The notes under the pieces: model-generated
The model's database searches: none
Seen by the model: the letters and a program-made list of their open reading frames with translations, nothing else
What the model was told of the DNA's origin: nothing
NCBI GenBank assembly: GCA_963575745.1
Contig: CAUYUJ010015266.1
Location: forward strand, 1 to 64,000
Length of the DNA stretch: 64,000 nt
From: Prorocentrum cordatum
Taxonomy: Eukaryota > Sar > Dinophyceae > Prorocentrales > Prorocentraceae
Reading direction: 5' to 3'
Part shown: piece after piece, positions 1 through 60,505 of the stretch
Position numbering within the stretch: the first letter of the stretch is position 1
Layout: each line of letters opens with the position of its first letter
Made by a program: the position numbers and the translations under genes

Positions 1-50
1 AGCACGCGCAAGCTATCTGGTGTAGGGGCACCCGTAGTCTTGCAGGGGGC

Positions 51-1190
51 GTGATTGTAGCAATGTACATGAGCATTCAGGGGTATTTGAGGACGTGTGC
101 TGCCACGCAGCTTTCGGCTCATCGCTCGCGCCGCCCGCCAGGCCTCGCCATCATGTGGCGCCTTGCCTGCGGCCTGGCCCTCCCCACGCTGGCTGGAGCA
201 CACCCGTCTTCAGGCGGTGCGCCCCAGCACGGAGGAGAGGCTTTCCTGCGACATGCGGAGCGTGGGACGCTCTTCTACTTCTACCTTTACGATGACAGCA
301 TCTACAAATACGATCACAGCGCCAGTTTGGACCCGATCGTGAACAGCACCGCCGCCGCTGGTCCGTGCGGCACCGGGCCGCTGGGCGCCCCCGCGAGCGC
401 CTGGCCTGAGCAGCACCAGGGGCCCCGCCCCACGCGCTGCCCCCCTGGGACTTCGACGGCTACTACGACGTCTTCGACGAGTACCAGCATGTCTCCTACG
501 AGCACGCCCTCGTCAACTACGACACATGCATCGCAGTCGACCACCGATGTTGCCGCAGCTGAGATGACTCCTGCGTCCTCCGGCCACGCCTCGCACCGCA
601 TGCAAGTTCAGCTACGAGGGCTACCATCACTCAACATGACGCTTGCGGTCGACTGTCGTGCAGCATATCCTCGATGGTACCCTGTCCTCAGCTTGTCCTC
701 GACCGTCGTGCAGCATATCCTCGACAGGGCCGCTGGCAAGGCCCAGGCACGCAGTGGCGGCTTCAGCCCCGCTGTCGTGCCCCGCTTCAGCCCCACGAGT
801 CCCACTACCCCTCTGTGCGCCAGGGGTGAACCCGAGGAGGGCCCCGCTTTCTGGCACCTGATGAACATCCGAGCACGGCTCATACCGTGCGCCGCGGCGT
901 GGGCACCAGGCGAGGACCATCAGGACGTGTACTGGGCATGGCTCGAGGACTGCGTCCCGCACGTCCTGGCGACGCTCCATCTGCCACAGTACGACCACTT
1001 TTTCCAGGAGGATTCCGCGGAGAAAAACGACGCCCTGCGCCACCGCACCGCGTTCGACATGTGCGAGGATATCTGGCACTGAGCGGGCCCCGACAGACAG
1101 CGCACCAACCGCAACCTCACTCGTATCCAGGGCAGCCACGAGTACCCCACCCGCTACTTTGGCCTCCTTCTGGAATACAGGGCGCTCGTG
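51..1190 (+). pseudogene. LINE ORF1, N-terminal Tyr-rich part, broken
   Basis: Frame 3 is open from 51 to a TGA at 1080-1082, but the protein-like stretches jump frames. Frame 3 has a Tyr-rich run (LFYFYLYDDSIYKY, about 270-315). Frame 2 has another at 446-559 (DFDGYYDVFDEYQHVSYEH) ended by a TGA at 560-562. Frame 1 has a short third at 601-640. Frame 3 is protein-like again from about 840, and this continues past the TGA at 1080 to roughly 1190 (YPTRYFGLLLEYRALV). The region then passes into frame 2. I do not recognise the domain. The Tyr/Asp-rich character suggests one repeated module. A near-identical 24-bp direct repeat at 651 and 701 sits inside the damaged part. Confidence 0.5.
651..724 (+). 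repeat. 24-bp direct repeat pair in ORF1
   Basis: Positions 651-674 and 701-724 share 23 of 24 bases (both contain TCGTGCAGCATATCCTCGA), with starts 50 bases apart. The pair lies where the Tyr-rich reading is broken, so it may be a duplication that contributed to the damage. Confidence 0.85.
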
Positions 1191-4100
1191 CCCAGCTCGT
1201 CGGCCCTGAGGCTTTCGCGGCACCACTGCCGCCATACCTCTCACGGGCCCACGCCTTGCTGCCAAGAGGCCTCCCTCTGCCCGACCAAGACGCCCTGGCG
1301 TATCTCGCGGATGCAATCCTGCACCACCCGCCAGACCTGCAGCCGCTTGTCGAGGCGGAGCTCGCCGCGGCACCGATGGAACCGCTAAACCTACCACCGC
1401 CAGCTGGCCCCCTCGACCAGAACGCCACGTGTGACCAGCCCGCGGCCGACGCCGAACCGCTTCTGCTCCAGCACGCCGCTGCCAGCGATATCAGCAACAT
1501 ATCCCTGGACTCGTTCCACGTGTCGGACGATAGCCAGAACGACTCCATCCACGACACGGAAACCCAGGACCTCGACGGCACGACACCGCCAGGTGACACG
1601 GCCCAGCGCGACCGTGACAGCGAACCCTACACCGGGCGCCCCCTGTCGCACAGCAGTGCGCCCATCAACTCGGCCCAGGCCGACCCCAGCGCACAGCTCA
1701 GCGACGCCGAAGGCGCCACCGCCGCCGACGAGACAAGCCATTCCACTGCACTGCCAGCTCTCACCAGCCCGCGCAGTGGCGGCTCCAGCCCCGCTGCAGC
1801 ATTGGCTGGATCTGGGCGTCTTCAGACCTCAGGTGGCAGGACCCCGCCCCGCACCCTTGTCTGCCGAGCTAACGCGACTGACTCCAACTCCAGCGCCGTC
1901 GGCCACTGGCAGGCTGGCACCGACAATGATCCCATCGAGGACGCGAGCCCTGACGCCAGCGGCTCCTACGAGGCCCCGCACAGCGCAGCGGCCTCCCGAC
2001 GCTGCGGCTGTCTCATCTGCCTCGTCGTGGCCACGTATGCCATCGTGGTAGCCATGCCGTACAAGGACCAGATCGACGGGTACCTGCCGACACCGAGCCG
2101 AGACCCCAGCTACCGGCAGCGACGACGCCGTGAAGCTGCGGCACCAGGCCCACCCGTGTCCACTACGCCCCGACGCACAACGGCATACGACGCCGCGCCC
2201 GCCTTGTGGGGTATTCTCAAGTGGACCAGTGCCAAACTCAGAGACATCGTCTCGGGCGGAGCCAGCGCAGTCGGGTCTGGCCTCTGGGGTGCCCAGAAAT
2301 GGGCCAGCGGCAAACTCGGAGCTATTGCCACAGGCGGAGTGGTTTGCGGTCTTCTCCTGGTCGGCGCCAAACTTCTCGCTCAAGGAGCCGTCGGACACGT
2401 AGGAGCCCGCATCTGCGCGCGCGCCCTGGACTCACCCACGGCCCAGTGGTGCCTCCGCTGTTGCCAACCGATCAGGAGGCCGTGCGATGAGGCCACACAC
2501 ACAATGCCGCGCACGCATCCCGACGACCCCGAGAGCCAGCCCGTGCACTCTCTTCGACACCCGCTGCTACAGGAACACTATGCTGCTGCAGTTGCCGCCG
2601 CAGTCGCCGATGTCACCACCGCCACCACCGCCGCCATTGTTGAAGTCACTGCCGCGGTATCGCGAGCCTCGTCTGTCACACCACGGTCGACCAGCCCGTC
2701 CCCGCGAGACGGCCCCACAAGCGGCGCGGCCTATGGCAACCCGCCGACTCACGAAGACGCCACAGCTCAGGCCACCGACGCCGAGGCAAGTGAAACACGT
2801 GAGCGCACCCTCGACAGCCCGTGGTCCATCTTCCGACATGCAGATGCTCGTGGTTCCTCTTCCGACATGGACACCCAACCACCACGACGGCGAGCACGCT
2901 ACGCATCACCCGCCAGGCCCCAGGCGCCTCCAGGCCCTGGTACGCCCCACCCAGCCCTCAGGCCACCGACGCGCAACTTACGCAGCACCATCCAGCGCGA
3001 CCCAGCGGTCCCCGTGCCGCCGACGAGCATCCTCACCTCCCTGTACCAGAACGGCTTTGCGCTTGGTAACAGTGGCGTGACTACAGAGGACATCAAAGAC
3101 GCCCTGCGACTCTACGACCATCCTCGATTCACCCATGACCCAACGCTCCAAGCGTTGGCGCCGTGGACTGACATCATGCAGAGGCCCCCGAACCGACTCA
3201 CTTGGGTGCTGGAAGACTCGGGTGGGAACTCAGGCGAGACGATCTTCCCCTACCTCACGTGGGACCTCCGTGAACCCACCACTGACACGCCCACGGTCTT
3301 CTGGCACGGGACCCGCGGCGACCTTGCGGCTCGTCTCGCTTTCAACGGAGGTCACCTCCTGCCGGGCCCCCGCCGTGAAGCGAAGGGTCGAACCGCCACA
3401 AATGTCGGCCGCACGTACGTGAGTGTGCACCCGTCGCTGGCCGCGTGGTACGCGGTGCCGCCTCACCCGCCCTGCAGCCTCGAAGACGACACCCTCGCCT
3501 GGGGACCCATCGCGCTCTGGATGTGCGAGGCTACCAAACCGCCGCGCGGTGAGAACTGGCACAACTTCGTGAAAGGGGAGGCTCACGGAGCGCGCCTCAT
3601 CTACCCACGGGTCCTGGGCCTCCTCATCCGCATGGACTGGTGTGCCCCCACCGAAGCTGCCTCCAGGTGCCGTGCCCTACCACACACCTATGGCATGGGC
3701 GACTGTGCGCACGCCCTCCACATTGCCGGCTTCGATCACCCAGACCTCCGCGAGGCGGCTGAAGCCCGCGACCAGGAAGCAAACACCTGGCGCCGGCTGG
3801 ACACCGCGGCAGCGTGGCCACCGCCGCAGGCACTATACTCGCCAGAGGCAGCGCGAGCATGGGCTACACAGCACTACGACACCGAAGCAGCCACCAGGGC
3901 CGACCCCAACCAGCCCCGTCCGCGCGCCTCGCTTCGCAAGCTCCAGCTGGACCCGCAGCCACTGATCGACCTGGTGTACACCGGCTTGCAGGCCGTTCCC
4001 GTGCGGGGGCAGTCCGTCGTACGAGCGCCGCGCCCCAGCGGCTCCAGCCCTGGGGCCGCGTCTGGCCCATCGCACACCTATCAGCCAGGTGCCGCCCTGG

Positions 4101-4590
4101 GACACAGTCCAGACCGCTCATCGACGACATCGGGAGCCGACGACCGCCGTGCGCCGTCCCTCATCAGCGCGGCCGCCGCCCTCGCCCGAGGCCATGCCCG
4201 CTCACGGCGATCCGCCTCGCGTTCGTCACGGCAGAGCGGCGGAAACTCCACCTCTCACAGCAGCGACATCGAGACGTGGGAGCACATCGAGACGGAAGAG
4301 GAGCCGACCGCCTACCACGTCCTCGCCTTCCACGTCCGCGATGTGCGGGCCCGTGTGAACGCCCCTGGCGTCGAGGTCTGGCTTGACCCGGGCGAGCATC
4401 ACGATGGCGCCTACCTACCGTGGGGGGCGACCGTTGTGGGCCACCGCGTTATTGACCCTGCGGTTGCGGGTCGCGATGGCTGGGTCATCCTTCACCACGA
4501 CCATGGCGATACCACTACCAGGCTCTGGGCACCGACCCAAGTCCACGTCAAGGCGGACGACACTTGGCGCACGGTCATGATCCAGCGGAC
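887..4590 (+). pseudogene. LINE ORF1 central part: membrane segments and ART-like HGT region
   Basis: This is the frame-2 part of ORF1; frame 2 stays open to 5374, but the protein-like reading leaves it near 4590. An acidic Pro/Ser-rich start is followed by a hydrophobic segment at nt 2001-2062 (CLICLVVATYAIVVAM). Two related units follow, LWGILKWTSAKL (about 2203) and LWGAQKWASGKL (2282), and a second hydrophobic segment lies at 2319-2381. After a low-complexity linker comes a globular part, about nt 3000-3700, with FWHGTR (His codon 3305) and, 37 residues later, RTYVSVHPSLAAWYA (Tyr codons 3416 and 3449). This matches the His...Tyr spacing of ADP-ribosyltransferase folds (PARP/Tpt1 type). 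A third catalytic residue could not be assigned. The combination is unusual for a LINE ORF1; the function is unknown. Confidence 0.55.
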
Positions 4591-6345
4591 CTGGGGCCCC
4601 AGTGGATCGAGCGCCATGCTGACGACGCTCGCCTCCCCGCGGAGGTGGTCCGCACTACAGGCCAGTCCTGGTTCGCCGACGTCTGGCCCTTGTGGGATCG
4701 ACCCCGACCCCACCCAGACGACGCAGTCACCGACGAGCAAGCGTTCCCGCCCCTACCAGGACGCTGGACTTGCCTACAGTGCCGATTCCAATGCTGTCAG
4801 TATTGTGCTGCCCGCCGCAACGCGCAGCTCGGCACCTCGGGCCAACCAACGTGCCCGGACTGCTCCCTCAGCGGACTACGTGCACCTATGGACTGGTCCA
4901 CGGACTACTCTTGCAACAGCTGGACGTGTGCGTACAGCACCGACAACAGGGACTCCGACACATGCTGCCTCTCCAGCAGATGCCCGCATCCGCCTCGTCC
5001 GCACAGCCTGTTCGACGTCCGTGCCACAGGGATGCCTCCGCACATCCTCGCCCGCCAATACGGCAACGCGCCAGCCCAGCACGACCTCAAGGAACCCCCC
5101 CGAGCGCCTTCAGGCCCCGGGGGGGAGCCTCCGCAACCAGGCCAAGCAGGATACCAGGGTCAATGGTATCTACCACCGAGGCCGCGTCGCGTCCTCAAGC
5201 AGGGATTGCCCGACGGCACGAGGCGGCCACCAGGGTTCACAGGAACGGGGATGCCTGAAGACCCGTCTCCCGACCAACCGCTGTGGAAGGAAGGCTACGT
5301 GCTCTTCGGCCCTCACCAGGCCCTCAAGGAGGATTTCATCTTCAACAAAGCGGTCCGCCGACCTTACTCCCTAGCCATCACCAACATGCACAGGGATCGT
5401 GTCACAGTCAGGACCGTCTGCGAGTCTATCGCCGAGCGCATCCACACTACCCGCACGCGCTGGCGAGATGTGGTACTGTACTGGGATGCCGAGGGCGGCC
5501 CTGGGCCTCAAGCTCTCGACTACGACATGCGCCTCTGTGACGCCATGGTGAGTCGTGCCACGACCGAAGCCGAGTTGAACCACGACCGCAGCAACCGTGG
5601 TAGTTTCTGTCTCTATGGACCGGCGCACCAGCGGGCTGTGAACATCACGGAGCTCCCCGAGCCGCAGAACATTGACTTCGTGGAGCATGTACGGCGCTAC
5701 TCACCCGTCGGGGAGACTTACCCAGACCATGCCTTCGAGCACGTCTATCAGGGCTGGCGGCGGCCCGACGTGCCGCCCATCCTCCCCGACACCCGCCCGC
5801 TCTCGAGAGCCGACCAGCAGCGCTACCAACAGCACCAGCAGCGCACCCAGCAGCGCGACCAACGCGACGCAGGTCAGCCGAGCACGCCACGCAACCGCTC
5901 TCCCGCGCGCGTCCCGACAGGCGACAGCGCGGTGTACGGCGGGGGCGCCGCCTATCACCGTGGCCCCATTGGTGCCAGGCCCGCGGCGGCAGGAGCATCC
6001 GCCTCCAGCTACGGCCACGCCCCCCACGCCAGGGTGCACCCAGCGGTCGTCGGCTACCCGCGTGCACTCGGGCAGGCTCCCCCACGGGCCACCTCGCCCG
6101 TGCCGGGGTCCACGCGTGCCTGGGGCCATTACCCAGGCCGCCACGACAGCACCGCCAGCAACCAGCCCGCAGTGGCACCCCCTGCGGCTTCCAGCCCAGG
6201 GGGCTGCACCAAGCCGTGGCAGGACAGGGCGCCCCGAAGGATGGCGCGAGGCGAACGTGCGTGCCTGGCAACCGCGCCAACACACGCCCCCGCCAAACGT
6301 GGCCGCAGCGCTGCGCCCTGCCCAGGCAAAACCTGCCCCCCCTGA
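4564..6345 (+). pseudogene. LINE ORF1, Cys-cluster part
   Basis: The protein-like reading moves from frame 2 to frame 1 near 4580-4600 and stays there to about 6200, although frame 1 is open to 6345. Visible is a dense Cys cluster at nt 4771-4862 with the pattern C-x2-C-x3-CC-x2-C-x15-C-x2-C, probably zinc-binding. A second globular block runs at about 5280-5800 (EGYVLFGPHQALKEDFIF, then RRPYSLAITNMHRDRVTV). A Gln/Arg/Pro-rich low-complexity tail follows. ORF1 proteins of LINEs commonly bind nucleic acid through zinc knuckles, so an RNA-binding role is plausible but inferred. The frame leaves for frame 2 near 6200-6235. Confidence 0.5.
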
Positions 6346-7009
6346 GCGCGAGCGGCAGCCGCTCGTCCCGCTCGTCCTCACGCACACCCAGGCGCACCAC
6401 AGCGCCTCCCCGCGGCACAGCGAGGGTAGTGCCCACCACGTCAGCCCCCGGCCCGACGCCGTCGACCCTGACCAGGCTGCAGCCTCGGCGGCGGGCGGCA
6501 CAGGCGGCTCCCGCCCGCCCAGCCCAACACCCTGCGCAGCGCCGATCCGCTCCCCGAGCAGGGCGGACTCTGCGCGCGCTAACGCCCAGGTGGCCTCGCC
6601 ACGTGACCGCCGCACGGGCGGGCGCGTCCCGCGCAGCCGGTCCCACAGCCGCCACAGCTCGCGCAAGCCCCCTGGGAGCTCCGCGAGCTCGCCGCCCCGC
6701 GAGACTCAGGCTGACGGCCAAGCCTCCGAGGTGGTGCCACGTTTCGGTGCCAGCGCCATCGAACCTGGCCAGGTCGACCTCGAGCCGACGCCGTCCACGG
6801 ACCAGGAGCTGCCACCGCCCACCCGCGTTGTCGTCGCCTTCGACGAGGCGCCGACCTTCGACCCCTTCAAGCACAAGTACTCCGTCAAGGGCCTCGCGGC
6901 GGGCTTCGGCGGCGGCTCACCGCTGCCCCCTCTGAGCCACGGCGGCGGCCCCGCCGCCTCAGCCGCTGCCGCGGCAGCGGCAGCCCCGCGTGGAGTCAGC
7001 CCTGTCCGC
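6220..7009 (+). pseudogene. LINE ORF1, Pro/Ser/Arg-rich part
   Basis: Frame 2 becomes the protein-like frame again from about 6220 and reads through SR-like sequence (GGRVPRSRSHSRHSSRKP). A short conserved-looking stretch near 6820-6900 contains PTRVVVAFDEAPTFDPFKHK. The reading then enters an Ala run and APRGVSPVR at the first copy of a 25-bp tandem duplication. Because 25 is not a multiple of three, the second copy pushes the reading into frame 3. The frame-2 stop at 7118-7120 is therefore a consequence of the duplication. Confidence 0.45.
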
Positions 7010-7034
7010 CCCGCGTGGAGTCAGCCCTGTCCGC
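6985..7034 (+). repeat. 25-bp perfect tandem duplication, frame-shifting
   Basis: Positions 6985-7009 and 7010-7034 are identical (both begin CCCGCGTGGAGTCAGCC). Both copies encode the end of APRGVSPVR, one in frame 2 and one in frame 3, which shows the original single-copy frame directly. Confidence 0.95.
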
Positions 7035-7601
7035 AACGCGTGCCTCACGGCAGCGGGCATGGACGAGGCTCAGCGCCAGGCCACCGACCGCGCCGCTCGC
7101 CACGCCCAGCTAGTGGCTGACGCGCTGGCAGGGCGTGCGCCGCCGCAGCCACAGGGCCCACCGCCCGAGGCGAGCGCGGAGGGTGCACACGAACAAGCTG
7201 TTCCAGCTGATGCTGCTCATCACGGCACTGACGGGGCGGGCGCGCCGCCGCAGGACGGACCAGCGGTGTCGCGTGCGCAGTATTTGCGCGCGCGCTGCGC
7301 CGCTGCCGCGCCGAGCTGCCGCCGCTGGCTTGCTTTTGCTCTTGAGCTCGGCAGGGCGGATCGAGGAGTCGCCTCCCTCTCCCCCTGCTGCCGTCTCACC
7401 TCTCCCCCCTCCGTCCCCCACGGTACAGGAGTGAGGAGGATTTTTCGAGGCAGTTTTGCCGACGTTTATGAACCCCCCCCCGGCGCAGCGTCGACCATGC
7501 CTTGCCTATACTTTTGGCCCGACGGCGGCTTCAGCCCCGTCCAAGCCAATCTGCCGCGACGCCATGAGCTCCTACTGTGGCCAAGCCTTCTACCTGGGTG
7601 A
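7010..7601 (+). pseudogene. LINE ORF1, C-terminal part after the duplication
   Basis: Frame 3 continues the reading after the 25-bp duplication: APRGVSPVR appears again and is followed by an Ala/Gln-rich segment (GMDEAQRQATDRAARHAQLV). Later comes a moderately hydrophobic stretch (SCRRWLAFALELGRAD). Frame 3 stops at 7599-7601 and overlaps the start of the endonuclease frame at 7456, so ORF1 and ORF2 overlap or abut, as in many LINEs. No domain is recognised. Confidence 0.4.
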
Positions 7602-8095
7602 CGGCCAGGCTGCCCTCCACCGTGCGGGGCGTGCTAACCCCAGCTCCACCGACGGAGATGGGCCAGGTCGCTCCATCCACCTCGTCAGCCTCAACATCAC
7701 GAGTCTCCCAGCGAACTGGCCAACCATCACCGCTCTAGGTGTCGACCACAACGCCGCAGTCATAGCACTGCAGGAGACCCGACATGCCAAGCCTACCAGG
7801 CAAGCCATCGCTACCAACGCCGCCAATCCACACCACGGAGGATACCAGGCCAGTCTGGGACCTGACCTGGATCTGGCGCGTGCTCAGCGCAAAGCTGCTC
7901 ACGGTGGCACGGACCACACGGTCGAGGGCAACACCGGCGCCTCGGGTGGGGTCGCCATCCTCTCTAAGGACGCCATCGTCGACTCCACCGTCGACGACAC
8001 GACCTGCGCCACCCTCAAGGCGATGGCACGAGGCCTTCCTCCCGCTCTGCACCCAGCACCGCCGCAGGCGACGACGAAACAACCACGGTCCCGCT
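7456..8095 (+). pseudogene. LINE ORF2, N-terminal half of APE-type endonuclease
   Basis: Frame 1 from 7456 carries the first half of an endonuclease/exonuclease/phosphatase (EEP) domain. The Asn motif SLNITSL lies at about 7687-7707 and the metal-binding Glu in LQETRH at 7768-7785, followed by GGVAILSKDAIV. Such an enzyme nicks target DNA to prime reverse transcription. The second half of the same domain is in frame 2, so a frame change must lie between about 8030 and 8095. Frame 1 itself runs out at 8163. The in-frame ATG at 7456 and a second at 7564 are both possible starts. Confidence 0.7.
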
Positions 8096-11000
8096 GGGAT
8101 CTACATTGCGAGCCTCTACGGGGTCGCTGGAGGGGACAGCACCGATTTGTTTCGGCTTGCTGATTGCGCCGCCGCGAGGGTCGGCTCAGCCCCGTATTTC
8201 ATTTGCATGGACGCCAACACGAACATCGACGACAATCCACATCTGCTGCACATGATGCAGCACGGATGGTTTAACGTCGCTGAAGGCACACCAGACCACA
8301 CCATGCACACATATGGCAATATCCCTGACTGGGACCGCGTCACCAAGTGCCCCCGCACTTCGCGCATCGATTATATCATCGCCAACCAAGCTGCGCGATC
8401 CCTTGTCACCGACTTCTGCTATCTGCGTGACTTGCCAGCGAAGTCCCATGTTGGCCTGCAGGTCACACTCGACCTTAGCCGCCTCGATCACACGGCCCCA
8501 CGCCTTCTGGCCCCCACGCCTTACCCTCCAAACGACGGAGCTCATGAGGACCACGAACTTCAGGCATTAGGGACCCTCATCGCAGGACGATACCACGACC
8601 GCATGGAGCAGGCTGACACACGCGACGATGTGGAACGCATGTTCGCCCTGGCAAACGAGGCCAGCCATGAGTACCATCTCACCCGGCTGCGGGACCTGCC
8701 GCCCCCACCGCCAGACCACCCAAAAAAGAAGGCCCCTACCATGCACGGGCTCACACCCACGTTCGAGGAGCGACCCGCCGTCCCCCGCGCCTTTCCCACC
8801 TACGGAGCTTCCACGATTCACATGAACCGCCTTCGCAAGCTCCATCGGCAACTTTGCGAGCTTCGCTTCATCGGACAGCACCATCATATGGACTGCCGTG
8901 CTATCCCGCCGCACCTGGCGCAACGCATCGACTGCACGTGGACCGCGGCCCGCCTTCTCTGCCACAAGCTGCGCCCCACGGCCCTCCTGGCCTTTCCTGA
9001 CGCCTGGACCCCCGACGTGCCAGCACCACGCGGAGAGCACCTAGATCGTCTGATCCAAAACCTAGACTCGGAGCTGGCGCGACGTGCAAACCGAGCCAAA
9101 GCTGAACGCATCAAGATCTGGGCTGAGGGTGTCCGCGAGCCAAGCGGGCGAAAGGCGGCCATATACGCACGGGCTGCCGACTGCTCGCCCACGGCGTATC
9201 TCCGCACGCCTACCACTCCCGACGATGCACAGCTCCACTGCGACACCACCGCCTTCAACCCTGACCAAGCTAGCACGGACGATAGTGACGCCGACACCGA
9301 CGCCGGCGGCTTCAGCCCCAGCGACGGTAGTTCGCTCGACACGGACAACGACGACGGCCACACTCGTGGCCCACCACCTGCCCAGGTTCCCGACGCCCTC
9401 CCCGCCAACGCTATTGTTGCCAACACCAAAGACATGCTTAAGCTCATGGTCGACACCTGGGAGCCCATCTTGGGCAGGTACCGCGCTCGCGCGGGCCATG
9501 ACGCCGAAGCTATGCCGACGTGGGCGGACTTCTACGACGAATACCGCCAAGAGCTGCCTACGCCATCACCAGCAGCCCCCTTCCACCTCACCGACGACCA
9601 ACTCATCCACTTCATTCGCACCCGTTCACCGCGCCGCGCGGGGGGACTCGACGGCTGGACAACTAAGGAGGCTAAGGAGTTACCCGACGACATCCTTCGC
9701 CTCTTCGCCAGCGTCTTACGTGCTATGCAACGCACTGGCACCATCCCCGAGCCCCTCCTGCACGTGCCAAACCCGTGCCTCCGAAAAGGCCGAGGGGAAC
9801 TCCCGACGGACCAACGACTTCTCTCGGTTCTTTCCGTGTGGATGTATGCGTGGGAAGCGCCGGCCTACCGTAGCCTCACGACCTGGCGGCAAGGATGGAC
9901 CCATGCCACGAGCTTCGGCGCTGTTCCCAAAGCCACCATTGGGGATGTCAGCACCTCTCTCGCCCTGCGCATCGAACACGCCAGGACTTTACTCCTCCCC
10001 TTAGCTGGAGCTGCCCTTGACCGACAGAAGTGCTTCGACTACCTCATCACGGACATCTGTCTAAACCTTGCGCTGCACGCGGGGTGTCCACAAGACATCG
10101 TTACTGTCCGCCGAAATTTCTACAGACACCACAAACGCTACATCCGCATGAACGGAGCGTACTCCAGGGACCTGGCCAGGACAAACGGTCACCTCCAGGG
10201 CAGCTCGTGGTCCCTGGATGACATCAAGCTGCTCATGTGCGTGTGGACAAAGAGGCAGCACCGATACGTTCCTCGATCACTCAGCACTACCTTCGTTGAC
10301 GACAGCAACTCCACTACCCACACCGCTTCTGAGCTGCAGAAATCTCTCGACGAAACCGCCAAGTTTGATCGATTCTCAGGTCAACGCATTCACCCTGGTA
10401 AAGTGGCAGGGTGGGCGCTCACCGACGAGCTTCACGCCGCCGTTACCCAGCTCACACTGGCGGATCGCCCCCTACGTGTGGTCGATTCCTTCAAGCTCGT
10501 CGGGAGTTACATCAACGCAGAGGCAGCGCCGGCTCCAGCCGCGCTTAACCTCACGGCCACCGCAGACGCCCGTGTACGGAGGGCGACTATCCGCCTGCCG
10601 CGCATTGGCAAGCTCCCGTCGCCGATGCTTATCAAGGCGCGGCACGCCCGATCCCTGGCTGCCAGCGTCTGCACCACGGGCACCGACATTCAAGCACCAT
10701 CAGGCCCAGCCAAGACTGCCTACAACCACGCCCTCAAGGCGGCTATCCGCCCCAAGGGGAACAAGTGGGTCGAGTTCTGGACTCTCATGGCCGTGTGCGT
10801 GCCGGGACACGCCCTTGAGATCGACGCCATCACGCAGCGTGAAGCATTCCTGTGCCTGCGGCGACAGGTTAACCGCGACGTTACACTCTGCGGGCTCGCC
10901 AGAGACCTCCAACACCACGTCCAGACCCTGTTTGGTGGAGGACCCGTCGGACGACTCGTCCAGTCGCTCCAGCAGCTCCGATGGACCTGGCCCACATTTG

Positions 11001-13201
11001 GCATCATGTACGACGACTGGGGCTGCCCGATCAGCTGGCTGAATTTACCCCAAAACGCCTTCCTGCACATGCTGCGGGCCTCACAACGCAGGGCATTTCT
11101 GCGAAGGATCAAGCCACGGCGACACGACCTTGGCTACCTCGCCTCTGTCAGACAGGGCCTTGACCTCTTCGCCAGCACGTGGCTCGCGCGAACTAAAGGA
11201 GCAGCCAAATGCACTGCCTGGCAGCTGGCGCTCCTCCTGAACTACCTGTCGGGCGGGGACCACACCCAACAGCGACGATCCCGATCAAACACGTCGGCAG
11301 ACCCCAGCCCCATGTGCCGCTACTGTGACGAGGAAGAGGAAACTCAGGAGCACACTGTCCGCGACTGTAAGTGCTGGGCCCGAGAAAGACTCCCTCTCAC
11401 CACCCTCATCAGTGACGACCAGTGGGCCCGTCTTCCGCCGCACACAAGACACTGCGGGCTCTTCGACGAAGACCCAGCCCTCCTCGACCTGCAGGCCGAC
11501 CTCGCGAGGGACCCGCTGCCACAGCCCATTCCGCGGCCCTCCCCCGATGGTGATCCTGCGGCTTCAGCCCAGGACACCTACACCACCTACCTTGACTACG
11601 ACACTGGTTGGATATGGGTCTATGCTGCCACGGACGGTGCGTGCACCAACCAAGCCATCCCATTGCTAGCACGAGCGGGTTACGGCGTCTACTACGGCAT
11701 CGATCACCGCATGAACTACAGTGCACGCGTTCACGGCCTAACGCAGAACGCCCAGGTTGCGGAGACCCTCGCCATTGTCCACCTTACGGCATGTGCCGAA
11801 CGGCCCGTGCACGTTTTCGTGGACAACCAGGCGGTGGTCGATGGGTTCCAAAGCATCATCGACGGACATCCAGCGCCGCAGGGCACGCACGCGGAGCTCT
11901 GGGAAAAGATCCACCGATGTGTTATGGCCAAGCCCAACATGTTTCGCGTCGAAAAAATCGCCAGCCACCTGGGAGACCTGGGCATCGACCTTGGGCTCAT
12001 CGGGCCCATCGCCCTTGCCACAGCCCTTGCCACAGCGGCGGCGCGCACGCACAACCTCCCCGACGACATTGTTGAAGCTGCCAAAACACGACATCGCCAA
12101 GCGACCGTGCTTCATGGGGTCGTTGTCGCTATTTACGAGCGCAGACACCGTACTCTGCCGCTCCCACACCGCAGGGCTGGGTTTACAGCAGCGGAACTCA
12201 GCAACATGGAACCGAACCCCCTGCTGTCGGACCAGGCACCACCCGCGGCTGGACCATACATCCCGCAGAACCCGGATGAGCTCTGGGCCGAGGCCCAACG
12301 GGCGATGCACGACGAACAGGAGGACGACCCGTTCGGCTTCGGCGGGGGATTAGACTTCCTGGACGACGGGCCAGCCAGCGCCAACCCTGCCCCGTCGGGC
12401 AGCCTCTCGACGCCCACCTCGACTCCGCCACCGAGAGCGACATCGCACCCACATGATGACGTCGCTCACCGTCAAGACGCCGACGAGGACCTTTATGATC
12501 CCCTCGGATTGAGTGGCAGCATAGACGACGCCCCGCCGACACCCCACGCTGCCGACGATGCCGCTTCATCGAGACGCCACCCGACCACGCGGCCGACCTC
12601 CGAGCCCTCGCACGGCATCATGATTGGCCCCCCCGTGCCACCCACCCCGTCCCCCCACCAGCGCCAGCCCGCGGGGGCGGCTCCAGCCCCCCCGCAGGGC
12701 ACTGAGCCAGTCAGGCCGTCGCACCCCGTCCACGCTTTTACTGTTGCTGGGTGCGAGGCTGCGGCTCCTCCGTCCTCACGGGGCGTGGCCCTAGCGGCTT
12801 CAGCCCTGGGACCGCGCGTTACCCTCCAGTCGCCTCGCAAGGGCGACGGCCGCCAGCACACGGATCGCCGCACCGCGCTGGTCCACCACCTGGCCAGGCG
12901 CACCGATGACCTCGTCCCCGCCACGAGGCCCGCGGCCGCAGGCACAGAGCAGCCGCCCCTCACCGACCGCGAAGCCGAGCTGTCCCAGTCTATGGCCGCT
13001 CTTCAGCAGAGGTGTGCTGCTCTCGCCGCCGACCTTGCCGCTGCTCAAGCCCGTCAAGGCCCTCTGCTCCAGCGCCTCCACCGCGCCGGGCGTGTTTTCG
13101 CCGAGCTGCTTACACCCTCGCCCGACGGTGCTGCGCCGCCACTCACCCTCCATGCTATGCTGTCATCGCTCCGCGGCGCTCCCCCTGGAGCCCCGCGCTA
13201 A
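7784..13201 (+). CDS. LINE ORF2 polyprotein: EEP C-half, reverse transcriptase, CCHC, RNase H
   Basis: This is an open frame of 1805 codons; the true product starts upstream in frame 1, so residues before nt ~8095 are probably not native. In order: the EEP C-terminal half (CMDANTN near 8204; RIDYIIAN 8366-8389; the final motif reads KSHVGL with the usual Asp of S-D-H not evident). RT spans about 9580-10700, with motif A LDRQKCFDYL (about 10016) and motif C FVDDS at 10292-10306, in place of the common YADD. A CCHC knuckle (C-x2-C-x8-H-x4-C) lies at about 11315-11375. RNase H runs from about 11600, with TDGACT, then ETLAIVHL and FVDNQAVVDG. Its last Asp motif (GN..AD) is not seen. A Pro-rich tail and a final Leu/Ala-rich coiled-coil-like stretch close it. 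Confidence 0.85.
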   Translation: MPSLPGKPSLPTPPIHTTEDTRPVWDLTWIWRVLSAKLLTVARTTRSRATPAPRVGSPSSLRTPSSTPPSTTRPAPPSRRWHEAFLPLCTQHRRRRRRNNHGPAGIYIASLYGVAGGDSTDLFRLADCAAARVGSAPYFICMDANTNIDDNPHLLHMMQHGWFNVAEGTPDHTMHTYGNIPDWDRVTKCPRTSRIDYIIANQAARSLVTDFCYLRDLPAKSHVGLQVTLDLSRLDHTAPRLLAPTPYPPNDGAHEDHELQALGTLIAGRYHDRMEQADTRDDVERMFALANEASHEYHLTRLRDLPPPPPDHPKKKAPTMHGLTPTFEERPAVPRAFPTYGASTIHMNRLRKLHRQLCELRFIGQHHHMDCRAIPPHLAQRIDCTWTAARLLCHKLRPTALLAFPDAWTPDVPAPRGEHLDRLIQNLDSELARRANRAKAERIKIWAEGVREPSGRKAAIYARAADCSPTAYLRTPTTPDDAQLHCDTTAFNPDQASTDDSDADTDAGGFSPSDGSSLDTDNDDGHTRGPPPAQVPDALPANAIVANTKDMLKLMVDTWEPILGRYRARAGHDAEAMPTWADFYDEYRQELPTPSPAAPFHLTDDQLIHFIRTRSPRRAGGLDGWTTKEAKELPDDILRLFASVLRAMQRTGTIPEPLLHVPNPCLRKGRGELPTDQRLLSVLSVWMYAWEAPAYRSLTTWRQGWTHATSFGAVPKATIGDVSTSLALRIEHARTLLLPLAGAALDRQKCFDYLITDICLNLALHAGCPQDIVTVRRNFYRHHKRYIRMNGAYSRDLARTNGHLQGSSWSLDDIKLLMCVWTKRQHRYVPRSLSTTFVDDSNSTTHTASELQKSLDETAKFDRFSGQRIHPGKVAGWALTDELHAAVTQLTLADRPLRVVDSFKLVGSYINAEAAPAPAALNLTATADARVRRATIRLPRIGKLPSPMLIKARHARSLAASVCTTGTDIQAPSGPAKTAYNHALKAAIRPKGNKWVEFWTLMAVCVPGHALEIDAITQREAFLCLRRQVNRDVTLCGLARDLQHHVQTLFGGGPVGRLVQSLQQLRWTWPTFGIMYDDWGCPISWLNLPQNAFLHMLRASQRRAFLRRIKPRRHDLGYLASVRQGLDLFASTWLARTKGAAKCTAWQLALLLNYLSGGDHTQQRRSRSNTSADPSPMCRYCDEEEETQEHTVRDCKCWARERLPLTTLISDDQWARLPPHTRHCGLFDEDPALLDLQADLARDPLPQPIPRPSPDGDPAASAQDTYTTYLDYDTGWIWVYAATDGACTNQAIPLLARAGYGVYYGIDHRMNYSARVHGLTQNAQVAETLAIVHLTACAERPVHVFVDNQAVVDGFQSIIDGHPAPQGTHAELWEKIHRCVMAKPNMFRVEKIASHLGDLGIDLGLIGPIALATALATAAARTHNLPDDIVEAAKTRHRQATVLHGVVVAIYERRHRTLPLPHRRAGFTAAELSNMEPNPLLSDQAPPAAGPYIPQNPDELWAEAQRAMHDEQEDDPFGFGGGLDFLDDGPASANPAPSGSLSTPTSTPPPRATSHPHDDVAHRQDADEDLYDPLGLSGSIDDAPPTPHAADDAASSRRHPTTRPTSEPSHGIMIGPPVPPTPSPHQRQPAGAAPAPPQGTEPVRPSHPVHAFTVAGCEAAAPPSSRGVALAASALGPRVTLQSPRKGDGRQHTDRRTALVHHLARRTDDLVPATRPAAAGTEQPPLTDREAELSQSMAALQQRCAALAADLAAAQARQGPLLQRLHRAGRVFAELLTPSPDGAAPPLTLHAMLSSLRGAPPGAPR

Positions 13202-13790
<589 letters not shown>

Positions 13791-29356: not shown

Positions 29357-30557
29357 TGTTGCTGTTGTTGTTGTTGGTGGTGTTGTTGAACATTATTAAT
29401 TCTAAAGAATAATTATTGTTGGGACCCCTGGTGCACGGCCCCCCTGCGCCGCCTAGGCCGCAGCTACATTTTCATCATTTTCGTGAGGAAGCCTCAGGTA
29501 ATTCGATGTGATCAAGATCCGGTTGTTTTGTTCCCCCCCGCTTTCCCTTGCAAAAAACACTATAAAATGACATTTCTTGTTCTAATATAATCAAATTTCA
29601 AGAATCCCTTGCAAAAAATAAGGTAAAGTGGACATTCGCGCGCGCAAGACGAAATCCTTCCAAAAGCTTAGTGTTCGGAGCGATTTTAACATAAAAACAT
29701 CAAAAAACCAATGGTTTTTCAACAAAAAAATGTCAAAATCTCATCCCGCGCGCTCTTGCGGATTCGTAGGAAACCCAACACTTTTTAAACATTTCTGTCA
29801 AACGGGCTTTTGCGAGCAACTTTTTCGAACTTCTGCGACAACGGTTGCGCACCTGCCAGGGCCATCATCCCTGTCAAATAATACCATGCGGGACACATTC
29901 GTTTTTTCTTCGCGCGCGCACGCCGAAATCTCCAAAAACCATTGGGTTCTTAAGAATTTTAGCACCGCGCATCATAAAATCACACGAATCGCACCGTAGG
30001 TCCTCGAAAAACAGCTGCACGACTTTTCAAAATTTCCACCCGCGCGCGCTGTCCGAATCCTAAAAAAAACAATGGTTTCCCAACATTTATGTTACATGAG
30101 CTCGCGCGAGCTACTTTCGCACGCTCTTGCAACGGGGTTCGCGCGCCTGCCAGGGGCCATAATCCCTTGCGGTTGCGCCATAGGTTGCGCCCTCGGCCGC
30201 CGAGAATAAAACGCCCTCCTATTGGTTGCGCCATAGGTTGCGCCCTCGGCCGCCGAGAATAAAACGTCCCCCTACTGGTTGCGCCATAGGTTGCACATGC
30301 GCGCCCCGAATAAGTGACCAAGTTCTGTGGGTGTGTACCCCACGCCAGTGTAGTAGCCACGGTCGTCCGCACGCCACGAAGTGAAGTGTCCCAACGTCAT
30401 AGGGCGGGAAGCTGGGTTTGGGTGGTCGCGAAGAGTCGTTTGGATATTTGGTAGAGCTTGTAATGCCCCCCCACGAAGTGGGGGTATTGCCTGGTGTCGT
30501 ATGAAAACCCTGGCACTGGGGAGAACACCGCGCGTTCGGGTAAAATGATTGTTGTTG
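29316..30557 (+). repeat. (TTG)n-tailed dispersed repeat, copy 1
   Basis: A (TTG)/(CTG) tract at 29316-29383 leads into segment Y (29386-29934; starts AACATTATTAATTCTAAAG). After a middle region comes segment X (about 30330-30545; contains CCACGAAGTGGGGGTATTG and GAAAACCCTGGCACTGGGGA), then a short (TTG)n. Segment Y is nearly identical to 54361-54897 and segment X recurs at 32288 and 54922. The conserved reading starting MDIRARKTKSFQ in Y follows from DNA identity, since a diverged third copy breaks it early. A tailed non-autonomous retroelement is the likeliest class. Confidence 0.75.
30171..30300 (+). repeat. 53-bp tandem repeat inside the dispersed repeat
   Basis: Units start GGTTGCGCCATAGGTTGCGC at 30171, 30224 and 30277. 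Two are complete, with three or so differences, and the third is partial. Each holds GGCCGCCGAGAATAAAACG. Confidence 0.9.
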
Positions 30558-32634
<2,077 letters not shown>

Positions 32635-32960
32635 CCCACCCGCAACCCGCCCCGCGACCCACCCCGCGACCCACCCCGCGACCCGCCCGCGACCCACCCG
32701 CGACCCACCCGCGACCCACCCCGCGACCCACCCGCGACCCACCCGCGACCCACCCGCGACCCACCCGCGACCCACCGCGACCCCCGCGACCCCCCGCGAC
32801 CCACCCCACGACCCACCCCGACCCACCCGCGACCCACCCCGCGACCCACCCCGCGACCGCCCGCGGCCCGCCCCGCGACCCACCCGCGACCCAACCGCGA
32901 CCCACCCGCGACCCACCCGCGACCCACCCGCGACCCACCCCGCTACTCACCCGCGACCCA
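32635..32960 (+). repeat. GC-rich 11-12-bp minisatellite
   Basis: About 27 units of CCCGCGACCCAC with one-base length variation. It begins directly after the (TTG)n tail. The last part is included in the left arm of the inverted repeat. Pro/Arg/Thr frames across it are repeat products. Confidence 0.93.
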
Positions 32961-33953
32961 CCTTCGACCCAAACCACGTTCAAGGTACAAACCACCATTT
33001 TCGGCGCTTGCGGCGGGCTTTTTTGCATCCCTTCCAGGTGCAGAGCCCTCGGCCCACCCGCGACCAACCCGCGACCCAAACCACGTTCAGGGCACAAACC
33101 TTTTTTAGGCGCCTGCGGCGGGCAACTTTTGCATTCGTTCCAGGTGGAGAGCCCGCGGCCCACCCGCGACCATGTTCAGGGTACAAACCAAATTTTTCGG
33201 CGCCTGCGGCGGGCTGCTTTTGCATTCCTTCCAGGTGGAGGTGTAGAGCCCGCGACCCACCCGCGACCCAAGCCACGTTCACTGAACAAACCAATGCCGC
33301 ACAAGCGCGGCCGCGGATTTTTGCATGCCGTCTGAATCCGCAACGACCTCTTCAAGCCCCGCGCATCCACGCCAGCCCGTCCAGCAACTTTGCCCTTGCG
33401 AGTTGCCTTGATCAGAGAAGTCGGGAAGCAGAAAGTGGAAAAAAGGATTGCGTTGCCGTTTTCTTGGGAAAGGAGGGGGAGGCAGGATGAGTAAACAGGG
33501 GACGAGGAGGACGCGGAAGAAGAGAGGATGTAAGGAGAATGTGGAGAAAGAGGAGGAGGAGGAGCAGGAGGACGAGGAGGGGGAGGAGGGGGAGGAGGGG
33601 AAGGAGGAGGACGAGGAGGGGAAGGAGGGGGGGGAGGGGAGGATAATGATGATGGACGACAATGGGAGGACGATAATGGAGGCCGATGAGGGGGAGGACG
33701 ACAATGGGAGGACGATGATGAAAGGACGAGGGGGGGAGAGGGAGGACGAGGAAGAGGAGGAGGAGGAGGACGATGACGATGAGGACGAGGACGAGGACGA
33801 GGAGGACGAGGACGAGGAGGAGGAGGAGGAGGAGGAGGAGAGCGCCATCGACAGGGAAGGTGGGGGCCACGAGGTCCGCCGGCTCGACGACGCCCGCGTC
33901 GCCCGTGCCCGCCCCCTCACTCTTATCCGCAACTGCGGGGTGCTACGTACTTC
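32858..33953 (+). repeat. Left arm of a large inverted repeat
   Basis: This arm matches the reverse complement of 35462-36570 from CGCCCGCGGCCCGCC at the outer end to CTGCGGGGTGCTACGTA at the inner end. Differences are small indels in GGA and A runs plus a few substitutions. Within the arm are three to four diverged units of ~95 bp (CAAACCACGTTCA, CTGCGGCGGGC, CATTCCTTCCAGGTGGA) and a long (GGA)n stretch at about 33550-33845. No gene is seen; the acidic frames come from the GGA repeat. Confidence 0.9.
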
Positions 33954-35461: not shown

Positions 35462-36570
35462 TACGTAGCACCCCGCAGTTGCGGATAAGAGTGAGGGGGC
35501 GGGCACGGGCGACGCGGGCGTCGTCGAGCCGGCGGACCTCGTGGCCCCCACCTTCCCTGTCGATGGCGCTCTCCTCCTCCTCCTTCTCGTCCTCGTCCTC
35601 ATCGTCATCGTCCTCCTCCTCCTCTTCTTCCTCGTCCTCCCTCTCCCCCCCTCGTCCTTTCATCATCGTCCTCCCATTGTCGTCCTCCCCCTTCATCGGC
35701 CTCCATCATCGTCCTCCCATTGTCGTCCATCTGTCGTCCATCATCATTATCCTCCCCTCCTCCCCCTCCTTCCCCTCCTCGTCCTCCTCCTTCCCCTCCT
35801 CCCCCTCCTCCCCCTCCTCGTCCTCCTGCTCCTCCTCCTCCTCCTCCTCCTCCTCCTCCTCCTCCTCCTCCTCTTTCTCCACATTCTCCTTACATCCTCT
35901 CTTCTTCCGCGTCCTCCTCGTCCCCTGTTTACTCCTCCTGCCTCCCCCTCCTTTCCCAAGAAAACGGCAACGCAATTTTTTTTTCCACTTTCTGCTCCCC
36001 GACTTCTCTGATCAAGGCAACTCGCAAGGGCAAAGTTGCTGGACGGGCTGGCGTGGATGCGCGGGGCTTGAAGAGGTCGTTGCGGATTCAGACGGCATGC
36101 AAAAATCCGCGGCCGCGCTTGTGCGGCATTGGTTTGTTCAGTGAACGTGGTTTGGGTCGCGGGTGGGTCGCGGGCTCTCCACCTCCACCTGGAAGGAATG
36201 CAAAAGCAGCCCGCCGCAGGCGCCGAAACATTTGGTTTGTACCCTGAACATGGTCGCGGGTGGGCCGCGGGCTCTCCACCTGGAACGAATGCAAAAGTTG
36301 CCCGCCGCAGGCGCCTAAACAAGGTTTGTGCCCTGAACGTGGTTTGGGTCGCGGGTTGGTCGCGGGGCGGGTGGGCCGAGGGCTCTGCACCTGGAAAGGA
36401 TGCAAAAAAACCCGCCGCAAGCGCCCAAACTGGTGGTTTGTACATTGAACGTGGTTTGGGTCGAAGGTGGGTCGCGGGTGAGTAGCGGGGTGGGTCGCGG
36501 GTGGGTCGCGGGTGGGTCGCGGGTGGGTCGCGGTTGGGTCGCGGGTGGGTCGCGGGGCGGGCCGCGGGCG
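35462..36570 (-). repeat. Right arm of the large inverted repeat
   Basis: Reverse complement of the left arm at 32858-33953. It begins TACGTAGCACCCCGCAGT and ends GGGCGGGCCGCGGGCG. The CCT-rich part at 35570-35880 is the counterpart of the GGA stretch in the left arm, and the run of A in the left arm near 33441 is a longer T run here near 35977. The transition to unique sequence at 36571 (ATTAACGGCC) is sharp. Confidence 0.9.
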
Positions 36571-50910: not shown

Positions 50911-51144
50911 CTTTTTTCCCGGAAAGGGCGCAGGCCCAGGGTTTTTTTTCCCGGAAAGGGCTCCGGCCCAGGGTTCTCTTTTAGTTGGTAAACCTGTCCC
51001 CCGGTGCCAACTTGAAGGAGGCCGGCGGATTTTTTCCCTGATAAATATCGAGGTCGAAGGAGGCCGGCGGATTAAAATTTGAGGATGTCTCAGGCGAAAC
51101 GCTTGTTTTTGAAATCCCGATCGATAAATCACAGGGTGCGGGGC

Positions 51145-51862
51145 ACCTCAGCACGACCACGCCCCAGCACGACCACGCCCCAGTACGACCACGCCCCAGC
51201 ACGACCACGCCCCAGCACGACCACGCCCCAGCACGACCACACCCCAGCACGACCACACTCCAGCACGACCGCACCCCAGCACGACCACACCCCATCACGA
51301 CCACACCCCAGCACGACCCGATCGATAAATCACAGGGTGCGGACCACCCCAGCACGACCACACCCCAGCACGACCCCACCCCAGCACGACCCCGCCCCAG
51401 CACGACCACGCCCCAGCACGACCGCACCCCAGCACGACCACACCCCAGCACGACCCCACCCCAGCACGACCCCACCCCAGCACGACCGCGCCCTAGCACG
51501 ACCACAGCCCAGCACGACCACGCCCCAGCACGACCACACCCCAGCACGACCCCACCCCAGCACGACCCCACCCCAGCACGACCACACCCCATCACGACCA
51601 CACCCCAGCACGACCCCGCCCCAGCACGACCCCACCTCAGCAAGACCACGCCCCAGCACGACCACACCCCAGCACGACCGCACCCCAGCACGACCCCACC
51701 CGAGCACGACCACGCCCCAGCACGACCACGCCCCAGCACGACCGCGCCCCAGCACGACCACCCCCCAGCACGACCACCCCCCAGCACGACCACCCCCCAT
51801 CACGACCACCCCCCAGCACGACCACCCCCCAGCACGACCACTCCCCAGCACGACCACGCCGC
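51145..51862 (+). repeat. 15-bp minisatellite CCCCAGCACGACCAC
   Basis: About 45 units with variation mainly at the last triplet (CCAC, CCCC, CCGC). Because 15 is divisible by three, every frame is open for long stretches on both strands; no gene is inferred. Confidence 0.95.
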
Positions 51863-52724: not shown

Positions 52725-53455
52725 AAGTCTGTGTATGCGTGTATGTGTGTATGTGTGCGTGTGTGCGTGTGTGCGTGTGTGCGAGTGTGCGTGTGTTCGT
52801 GTGTGTGCGCGTGTGCGCGTCTGCGCGTGTGCGCGTGTGCGCGTGTGCGCGTGTGCGCGTGTGTGCGCGTGTACGCGTGTGCGTGTGTGCGTGTGTGCGT
52901 GTGTGCGTGTGTGCGTGTGTGCGTGTGTGCGTGTGTGTGTGTGTGTGCGCGTGTGCGCGTGTGTGCGTGTGTGCGTGCGGGCGTGTGGGCGTGTGTGCGT
53001 GTGTGCGTGTGTGCGTGTGTGCGTGTGTGCGTGTGTGCGTGCGTGTGTGCGTGTGTGCGTGTGTGCGTGTGTGCGTGGCGTGTGTGCGTGTGTGCGTGGT
53101 GTGCGTGCGTGCGTGCGTGCGTGTGTGCGTGTGTGCGTGTGTGCGTGTGTGCGTGTGTGCGTGTGTGCGTGTGTGCGTGTGTGCGTGTGTGCGTGTGTGC
53201 GTGTGTGCGTGTGTGCGTGTGTGCGTGTGTGCGTGTGTGCGTGTGTGCGTGTGTGCGTGTGCGTGCGTGCGTGTGTGCGTGTGTGCGTGTGTGCGTGTGT
53301 GCGTGTGTGCGTGTGTGCGTGTGTGCGTGTGTGCGTGTGTGCGTGTGTGCGTGTGTGCGTGTGCGTGTGCGTGTGTGTGTGTGTGTGGGTGTGGGTGTGG
53401 GTGTGGGTGTGTGTGTGTGGGGGGGTGTGGGTGTGGGTGTGGGTGTGGGCGTGGG
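52725..53455 (+). repeat. (TGTGTGCG)n compound microsatellite
   Basis: About 730 bases of alternating purine-pyrimidine sequence, mostly of an 8-base period GTGTGTGC, ending in GTGTGG units. Frames of Cys/Val/Arg on one strand and Thr/His on the other are open throughout and meaningless. Confidence 0.96.
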
Positions 53456-53584
53456 TCAAGCTAGCCAGCTCGAGCGAGTCAAGCATGCCATGCCCATTCC
53501 CACCCGCCCACCCACAACATAAGAAACGGTGATGGCACAACTGGGGGCTGCGCTGGCATTTCAGTGCGAGTGGAGGATACCCCA

Positions 53585-54350: not shown

Positions 54351-55198
54351 TGTTGTTGTTGAACATTATTAATTCTAAAGAATAATTATTGTTGGGACCC
54401 CTGGTGCACGGCCCCCCTGCGCCGCCTAGGCCGCAGCTACATTTTCATCATTTTCGTGAGGAAGCCTCAGGTAATTCGATGTGATCAAGATCCGGTTGTT
54501 TTGTTGTAATCCGTTTTCCCTTGCAAAAAACACTATAAAATGACATTTCTTGTTCTAATATAATCAAATTTCAAGAATCCCTTGCAAAAAATAAGGTAAA
54601 GTGGACATTCGCGCGCGCAAGACGAAATCCTTCCAAAAGCTTAGTGTTCGGAGCGATTTTAACATAAAAACATCAAAAAACCAATGGTTTTTCAACAAAA
54701 AAATGTCAAAATCTCATCCCGCGCGCTCTTGCGGATTCGTAGGAAACCCAACACTTTTTAAACATTTCTGTCAAACGGGCTTTTGCGAGCAACTTTTTCG
54801 AACTTCTGCGACAACGGTTGCGCACCTGCCAGGGCCATCATCCCTGTCAAATAATACCATGCGGGACACATTCGTTTTTTCTTCGCGCGCGCACGCCGTC
54901 GTCGTCGGCCGCGGGGCCCTGAATAGTAGCCACGGTCGTCCGCATGCCACGAAGTGAAGTGTCCGAACGTCATAGGGCGGGAAGCTGGGTGTGGGTGGTG
55001 GCGAAGAGTCGTTTGGAAATTTGGTAGAGCTTGAACCGGCCCCCCCACAAAGTGGGGGTATTGCCCGCCTCCTATGAAAACCCTGGCACTGGTGAGAACG
55101 GAGTGTCCCCAGTCTTAAATGATTGTTGTTGTTGTTGTTGTTGTTGGTGTTGGTGTTGTTGTTGTTGTTGTAGTATTAGTAGTAGTAGTAGTAGTAGC

Positions 55199-60041: not shown

Positions 60042-60505
60042 ACCGCAGCGCCTGTGTACACCACAATGCTCGCGTGCACCACAGCGCGCGTGTACACCAC
60101 AGCGCCTGCGTACACCGCAACAGCCGTGTGTGACGCAGCGCCTTTGTACACCAGAGTGCTCGCGTGCATCACAGCGCCTGTGTACACCACAGCGAATGTG
60201 TAACACCGCAGCAACCATGTGCAACACAGCGCCTGTGTACACCACAATGCTTGCGTGCACCACAGCGCCTGTGTACACCACAGCGCCTGCGTACACCACA
60301 GCGCCTGCGTACACCACAGCAGCCGCGTGCAACGCAGCGCCAGTGTGTGACACAGTACCTGCGGACACCACAGCGATTGTGTACACCACAGCGCCTGCGT
60401 ACACCACATCAGCCGTGTGCAACACAGCACCAGTGTACACCACAATGCTTCCGTGCACCACAGCGCCTGAGTTCATCACGGCGCCTGTGTGCACCACAGC
60501 AACCG
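60042..60505 (+). repeat. 18-bp array, plus orientation
   Basis: About 25 units of CAGCGCCTGTGTACACCA with substitutions, a few replaced by CAATGCTCGCGTGCACCA. It is preceded at 60013-60040 by GCATGTAGGTAGGTGGCGAT, the inverse of the word flanking the opposite array. There are no spacers, so it is not a CRISPR. Confidence 0.93.

Follow-up and report, generated by a model that had tools for sequence, protein, structure and literature searches.

A putative, diverged ADP-ribosyltransferase-like domain in the polyprotein of a dinoflagellate LINE

Does a retrotransposon of the dinoflagellate Prorocentrum cordatum carry an ADP-ribosyltransferase (ART)? The question is raised by a long interspersed nuclear element (LINE) near the start of contig CAUYUJ010015266.1, of which we analysed the first 64,000 nucleotides (hereafter the window; bases 1-64000 of contig C14417 in the 4,128,499,153-base assembly that was searched for copies). 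A first-pass annotation of this DNA proposed that the first open reading frame (ORF1) of the LINE has captured or shares an ART-type fold, on the basis of a histidine in an HGT motif followed by tyrosines. Our analysis favors a diverged PARP-type ART-fold domain in the LINE polyprotein, upstream of the endonuclease, reverse transcriptase (RT) and RNase H, a reading to which we assign a probability of roughly two in three.

The motif itself can be read directly in frame 2 of the window, which is open from 830 to 5374 on the plus strand and whose translation around the motif is TVFWHGTRGDLAARLAFNGGHLLPGPRREAKGRTATNVGRTYVSVHPSLAAWYAVPP. The sequence FWHGTRG, with the candidate catalytic His encoded by CAC at 3305-3307, is followed by RTYVSVHPSLAAWYA, in which TAC codons at 3416-3418 and 3449-3451 encode the candidate Tyr of an H-Y-x motif (RTYV) and a candidate nicotinamide-stacking Tyr (AAWYA), respectively. 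The residues first annotated are thus all present, though the spacing of 37 residues given for them applies to Tyr 3416 (His+37), while Tyr 3449 lies at His+48. The ART-like lobe that contains them, from TVFWHGTRG to RMDW, spans 3293..3643 on the plus strand. HG[STC] by itself is frequent, with 51 occurrences across the six frames of the window. A combined pattern of two hydrophobic residues, HG[STC], Tyr or Phe 25-45 residues later and a Tyr a further 10-12 residues on was found twice, whereas 200 residue shuffles of frames of at least 60 amino acids predict 0.08 occurrences; the comparison is purely descriptive because the pattern was defined after the motif had been seen. The second site, at 60461 on the minus strand, falls within repetitive, repeat-coded sequence.

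Comparison with PARP1 extends the resemblance beyond the motif. The two share an HG[ST] strand, a Gly at His+14 and a Tyr followed by a second Tyr 11 residues on (the PARP1 spacing was counted on the printed chain), and the segment IALWMCEA of the LINE domain can be set beside GLILLGEV of PARP1. The signature of PARP-type enzymes is H-Y-E/I/L, as in PARP1, PARP4 and PARP10, where the third residue is Glu in poly- and Ile or Leu in mono-ADP-ribosylating members; in contrast, the LINE domain has no assignable Glu, and by eye the strand GARLIYPRV places Ala there, though this strand alignment is unreliable. Ser 904 of PARP1 is likewise matched by eye to Ala, and the LINE domain differs from the PARPs in its location within a retrotransposon polyprotein. 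The conserved ORF1-like domain as a whole (3008..3790, plus strand), which is homologous to six environmental proteins, was modelled with AlphaFold using 7 sequences (predicted template modelling score, pTM, 0.65) as a helical N-terminal part, a beta hairpin (RLTWVLED..IFPYLTWDL), the ART-like lobe and C-terminal helices. A structure search with this domain returned a single row, the ART domain of PARP4, at a marginal Z score. In the model, the helical part and hairpin ahead of the HGT strand (3008-3290) appear winged-helix-like, and this portion is conserved in relatives including P0010.

The surrounding element is an APE-type LINE, in which a Pfam scan found endonuclease, RT and RNase H in order. 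The endonuclease (Exo_endo_phos, PF03372; E 3.3e-6, 27.4 bits against a cut-off of 24.5) and RNase H (PF00075; E 5.9e-6) are above the Pfam cut-offs, and the RT match (RVT_1) is weak at E 0.012, below the cut-off. A protein search of the genome with window positions 2930-3760 gave 2,277 first-look candidates, which are not confirmed copies; scoring covered the best 140. These are all 97-100% identical, 135 have no internal stop, and 46, the window among them, share the top score; the element is present as dispersed near-identical copies, a near-identity that suggests recent activity. For eight of these matches the enclosing open frame is 4,435 codons long. Three of these intact copies were checked (C10284, C12666 and C13263), and each has a single unbroken frame that includes the ART-like signature, a Cys-rich finger-like segment, the two endonuclease signatures, the RT motif FVDD and the RNase H signature. 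In C10284, numbered from the first codon past the preceding stop (the first Met being residue 58), WHGTRG starts at residue 1136, the endonuclease signatures are at 2616 and 2767, FVDD at 3462 and the RNase H signature at 3907. The ART-like domain in these three copies therefore belongs to one giant polyprotein frame, with no separate ORF1. Over the first 9.4 kb of the window copy, identity to C10284 is 98.99% and the alignment has 10 gap openings; the window copy is frame-broken by several frame switches. Because the intact copies have one frame and the window frame switches, the supposed ORF1 corresponds to the N-terminal portion of a polyprotein copy that is frame-broken and truncated by the contig start; the assignment to a LINE stands, and the assignment to a separate ORF1 does not. 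Copies of the ART-like region were also seen inside still longer frames, of 5,209 codons (G000:C19011:161142-161972) and 5,279 codons (G000:C18077:206857-207405). The Cys-rich finger-like segment (TCLQC...CPDC) lies downstream of the ART-like domain at 4771-4863 in the window and has no Pfam match; TCLQC also occurs in the intact frames.

Conservation was examined among genomic copies and among more distant relatives. The genomic set comprised the window, 30 top-scoring loci and 40 lower-ranked stop-free matches, about half of the 140 scored; these 71 sequences come from 70 genomic places, since the window's own place (L035) was counted twice, and represent 49 nucleotide haplotypes. The His and each Tyr are kept in 49/49, though these copies are young and residue conservation among them is correspondingly weak evidence. 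The ratio of nonsynonymous to synonymous polymorphism (pN/pS) was 0.289 for all 277 codons taken together; it fell to 0.190 in the core and rose to 0.505 in the N-terminal 60 codons. In a second set, made up of the window and 20 copies picked for long frames from which both regions were fetched (nine also in the first set), pN/pS was 0.309 across the ART region and 0.179 within its core (20 haplotypes), versus 0.073 for RT (18 haplotypes including the window; one gapped piece was dropped and 19 of 20 RT pieces used). The ART core is thus under weaker constraint than RT. With pN/pS far under 1 among the sampled copies, this shows purifying selection on the ART-like core, though pN is biased low by the choice of copies, all of which come from the top of the protein matches and 20 of which were selected for the length of their open frames. 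Beyond the genome, the ART-like region has six environmental matches, all of them proteins encoded on short contigs; in the full alignment they are 37-68% identical to the window sequence. Among those covering each position, Tyr 3416 is kept in 4/4, Tyr 3449 in 5/5 and the His in 4/5, P0008 having Gln instead. Other LINE relatives had been proposed as a check on the motif, and loss of the His and Tyr in relatives as a result that would speak against the fold; in the relatives that cover these positions, the Gln of P0008 is the only such loss.

If the ART fold is accepted, its probability is shared almost evenly between an active domain, which is slightly ahead, and an inactive one. A mono-ADP-ribosyltransferase would be the most likely form of an active domain because the His and both Tyr residues are kept and no Glu is evident at the position of the PARP1 catalytic Glu. 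Such a domain would bind NAD+ through His 3305 and Tyr 3449 and might act in cis during target-primed reverse transcription. Its candidate targets would be the ribonucleoprotein (RNP) of the element itself, the end of a nucleic acid where integration takes place, or a protein of host chromatin or host defence. In its full form, as an active PARP-type mono-ADP-ribosyltransferase in a single LINE polyprotein whose NAD+-dependent ADP-ribosylation, whether of the RNP, of the DNA end at the target or of a host factor, serves retrotransposition or escape from host control, we regard this explanation as possible. Hosts use NAD+ chemistry in DNA repair and, if the explanation is true, the domain would add such chemistry to what a retrotransposon carries. 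With its many near-identical copies and intact giant frames, the element lends itself to direct expression and assay of the domain.

The main rival keeps the ART fold and gives up its NAD+ chemistry, the domain serving instead to bind RNA or a partner within the LINE RNP, a role of the kind described for the pseudo-PARPs TASOR and ZAP. The His is replaced by Gln in P0008 and no PARP-like Glu is visible, both of which argue for this rival. By analogy, a passage of PMC7532188 describes TASOR, whose degenerate PARP domain has lost most active-site residues and binds single-stranded RNA weakly without NAD+ chemistry, and one in PMC5890265 describes LINE ORF1 as an RNA-binding protein. An inactive domain could lose the His and Tyr residues, so their presence in every haplotype argues the other way, though weakly given that the haplotypes lie within 2.2% nucleotide distance of the window. 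We consider this rival unlikely, though it would retain the favored fold.

The fold itself is open to a further objection, namely that the domain is specific to LINE ORF1 proteins, unrelated to ARTs, and matches PARPs at WHGTR and the Tyr residues by chance. Several results weigh in this direction: the PARP profile PF00644 gave no match with hmmscan to E 10, sequence-profile searches of the domain found no ART family, the similarity after the motif is not significant and the Z score of the PARP4 row is marginal. Scans of Pfam, NCBIfam and PADLOC turned up no DarT match, a result that includes no head-to-head comparison with a DarT structure or profile. Against a chance resemblance, the sole structural row is an ART domain and several spaced features agree with PARP1, and we judge it unlikely overall. 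The structure prediction and fold search suggested in the first-pass annotation returned an ART, but with marginal Z and with pLDDT below 50 around both Tyr residues, whose structural match to the PARP tyrosines is tentative; the proposal of a captured or shared ART fold is partly supported, since it keeps its conserved, spaced motif and single PARP4 row and lacks a profile match. Last, a two-lobed Tpt1/KptA-like protein (a winged-helix N-lobe and an ART lobe) with phosphates of RNA or DNA as its substrates is very improbable: although the HGT strand, the possible N-terminal lobe and, by eye in the model, a helix-strand-helix-helix-hairpin order would resemble KptA, and a lobe that binds RNA would fit the role of an ORF1, there is no Pfam match, the LRH, IRAxQGHS and RxxVHLS motifs have no visible counterpart, and hhalign against a KptA profile of 10 sequences, built because of that N-terminal likeness, gave P 0.24, with 109/200 shuffles scoring as high.

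The comparison with other elements suggests that a LINE with an extra enzyme-like domain is an already known kind and that the ART-like variant is new, pending proof of the fold. SymbioLINE-Dnmt of Symbiodinium, as presented in a section of PMC5890265, is likewise a multicopy dinoflagellate LINE under purifying selection with an enzyme domain in its ORF1 part; it differs in that the domain is a cytosine methyltransferase in a separate ORF upstream of the RT ORF, whereas here an ART-like domain lies in one fused frame, and a Pfam scan found no DNA_methylase match in the element pieces scanned. Jockey-family LINEs similarly carry an extra enzyme in ORF1, although their hosts are insects and the enzyme is a viral superfamily 1 (SF1) helicase (PMC5563155); the paper also lists RRM, CCHC, coiled coil, PHD, esterase and SF1 helicase among LINE ORF1 parts. 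TASOR and ZAP are pseudo-PARPs with a PARP fold that act against retroelements (PMC7532188, in part), which likewise ties an ART fold to retroelement control and RNA, but they are host repressors and not element-encoded. In searches limited to open-licence full text, we found no paper describing an ADP-ribosyltransferase domain in a transposable element; judged by title and the opening of the abstract, the papers listed deal with other subjects, two of them, on ZAP and TASOR, with the way hosts control retroelements.

The remainder of the window copy lies on the plus strand. The polyprotein starts in frame 3 (3..1082), which is still open where the contig begins and is colinear with an intact copy, passes through the frame-2 stretch 830..5374 described above and continues after a frame break in frame 1 (4456..6345), the stretch that holds the Cys-rich finger-like segment. 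A further frame-2 stretch (5642..7120) is a low-complexity linker with FDPFKHKYSVKG. The first part of the endonuclease (7561..8160) is followed by a frame-2 stretch (7766..13201) with the remaining endonuclease, RT (piece 9596-11000) and RNase H (11501-12350). A (CT)n run past the 3' untranslated stretch (13569..13760) may be the element's tail; similarity to one intact copy extends to 13657. Elsewhere in the window, two large tandem-repeat arrays (51116-51860 and 52730-53456) have strong strand-composition skew. A 548-base segment occurs twice at 98.7% identity (29378-29925 and 54351-54898), with a third, diverged copy at 30551-31065. An inverted repeat of ~1.1 kb at 92% identity (32858-33949 / 35462-36570) is possibly another mobile element.
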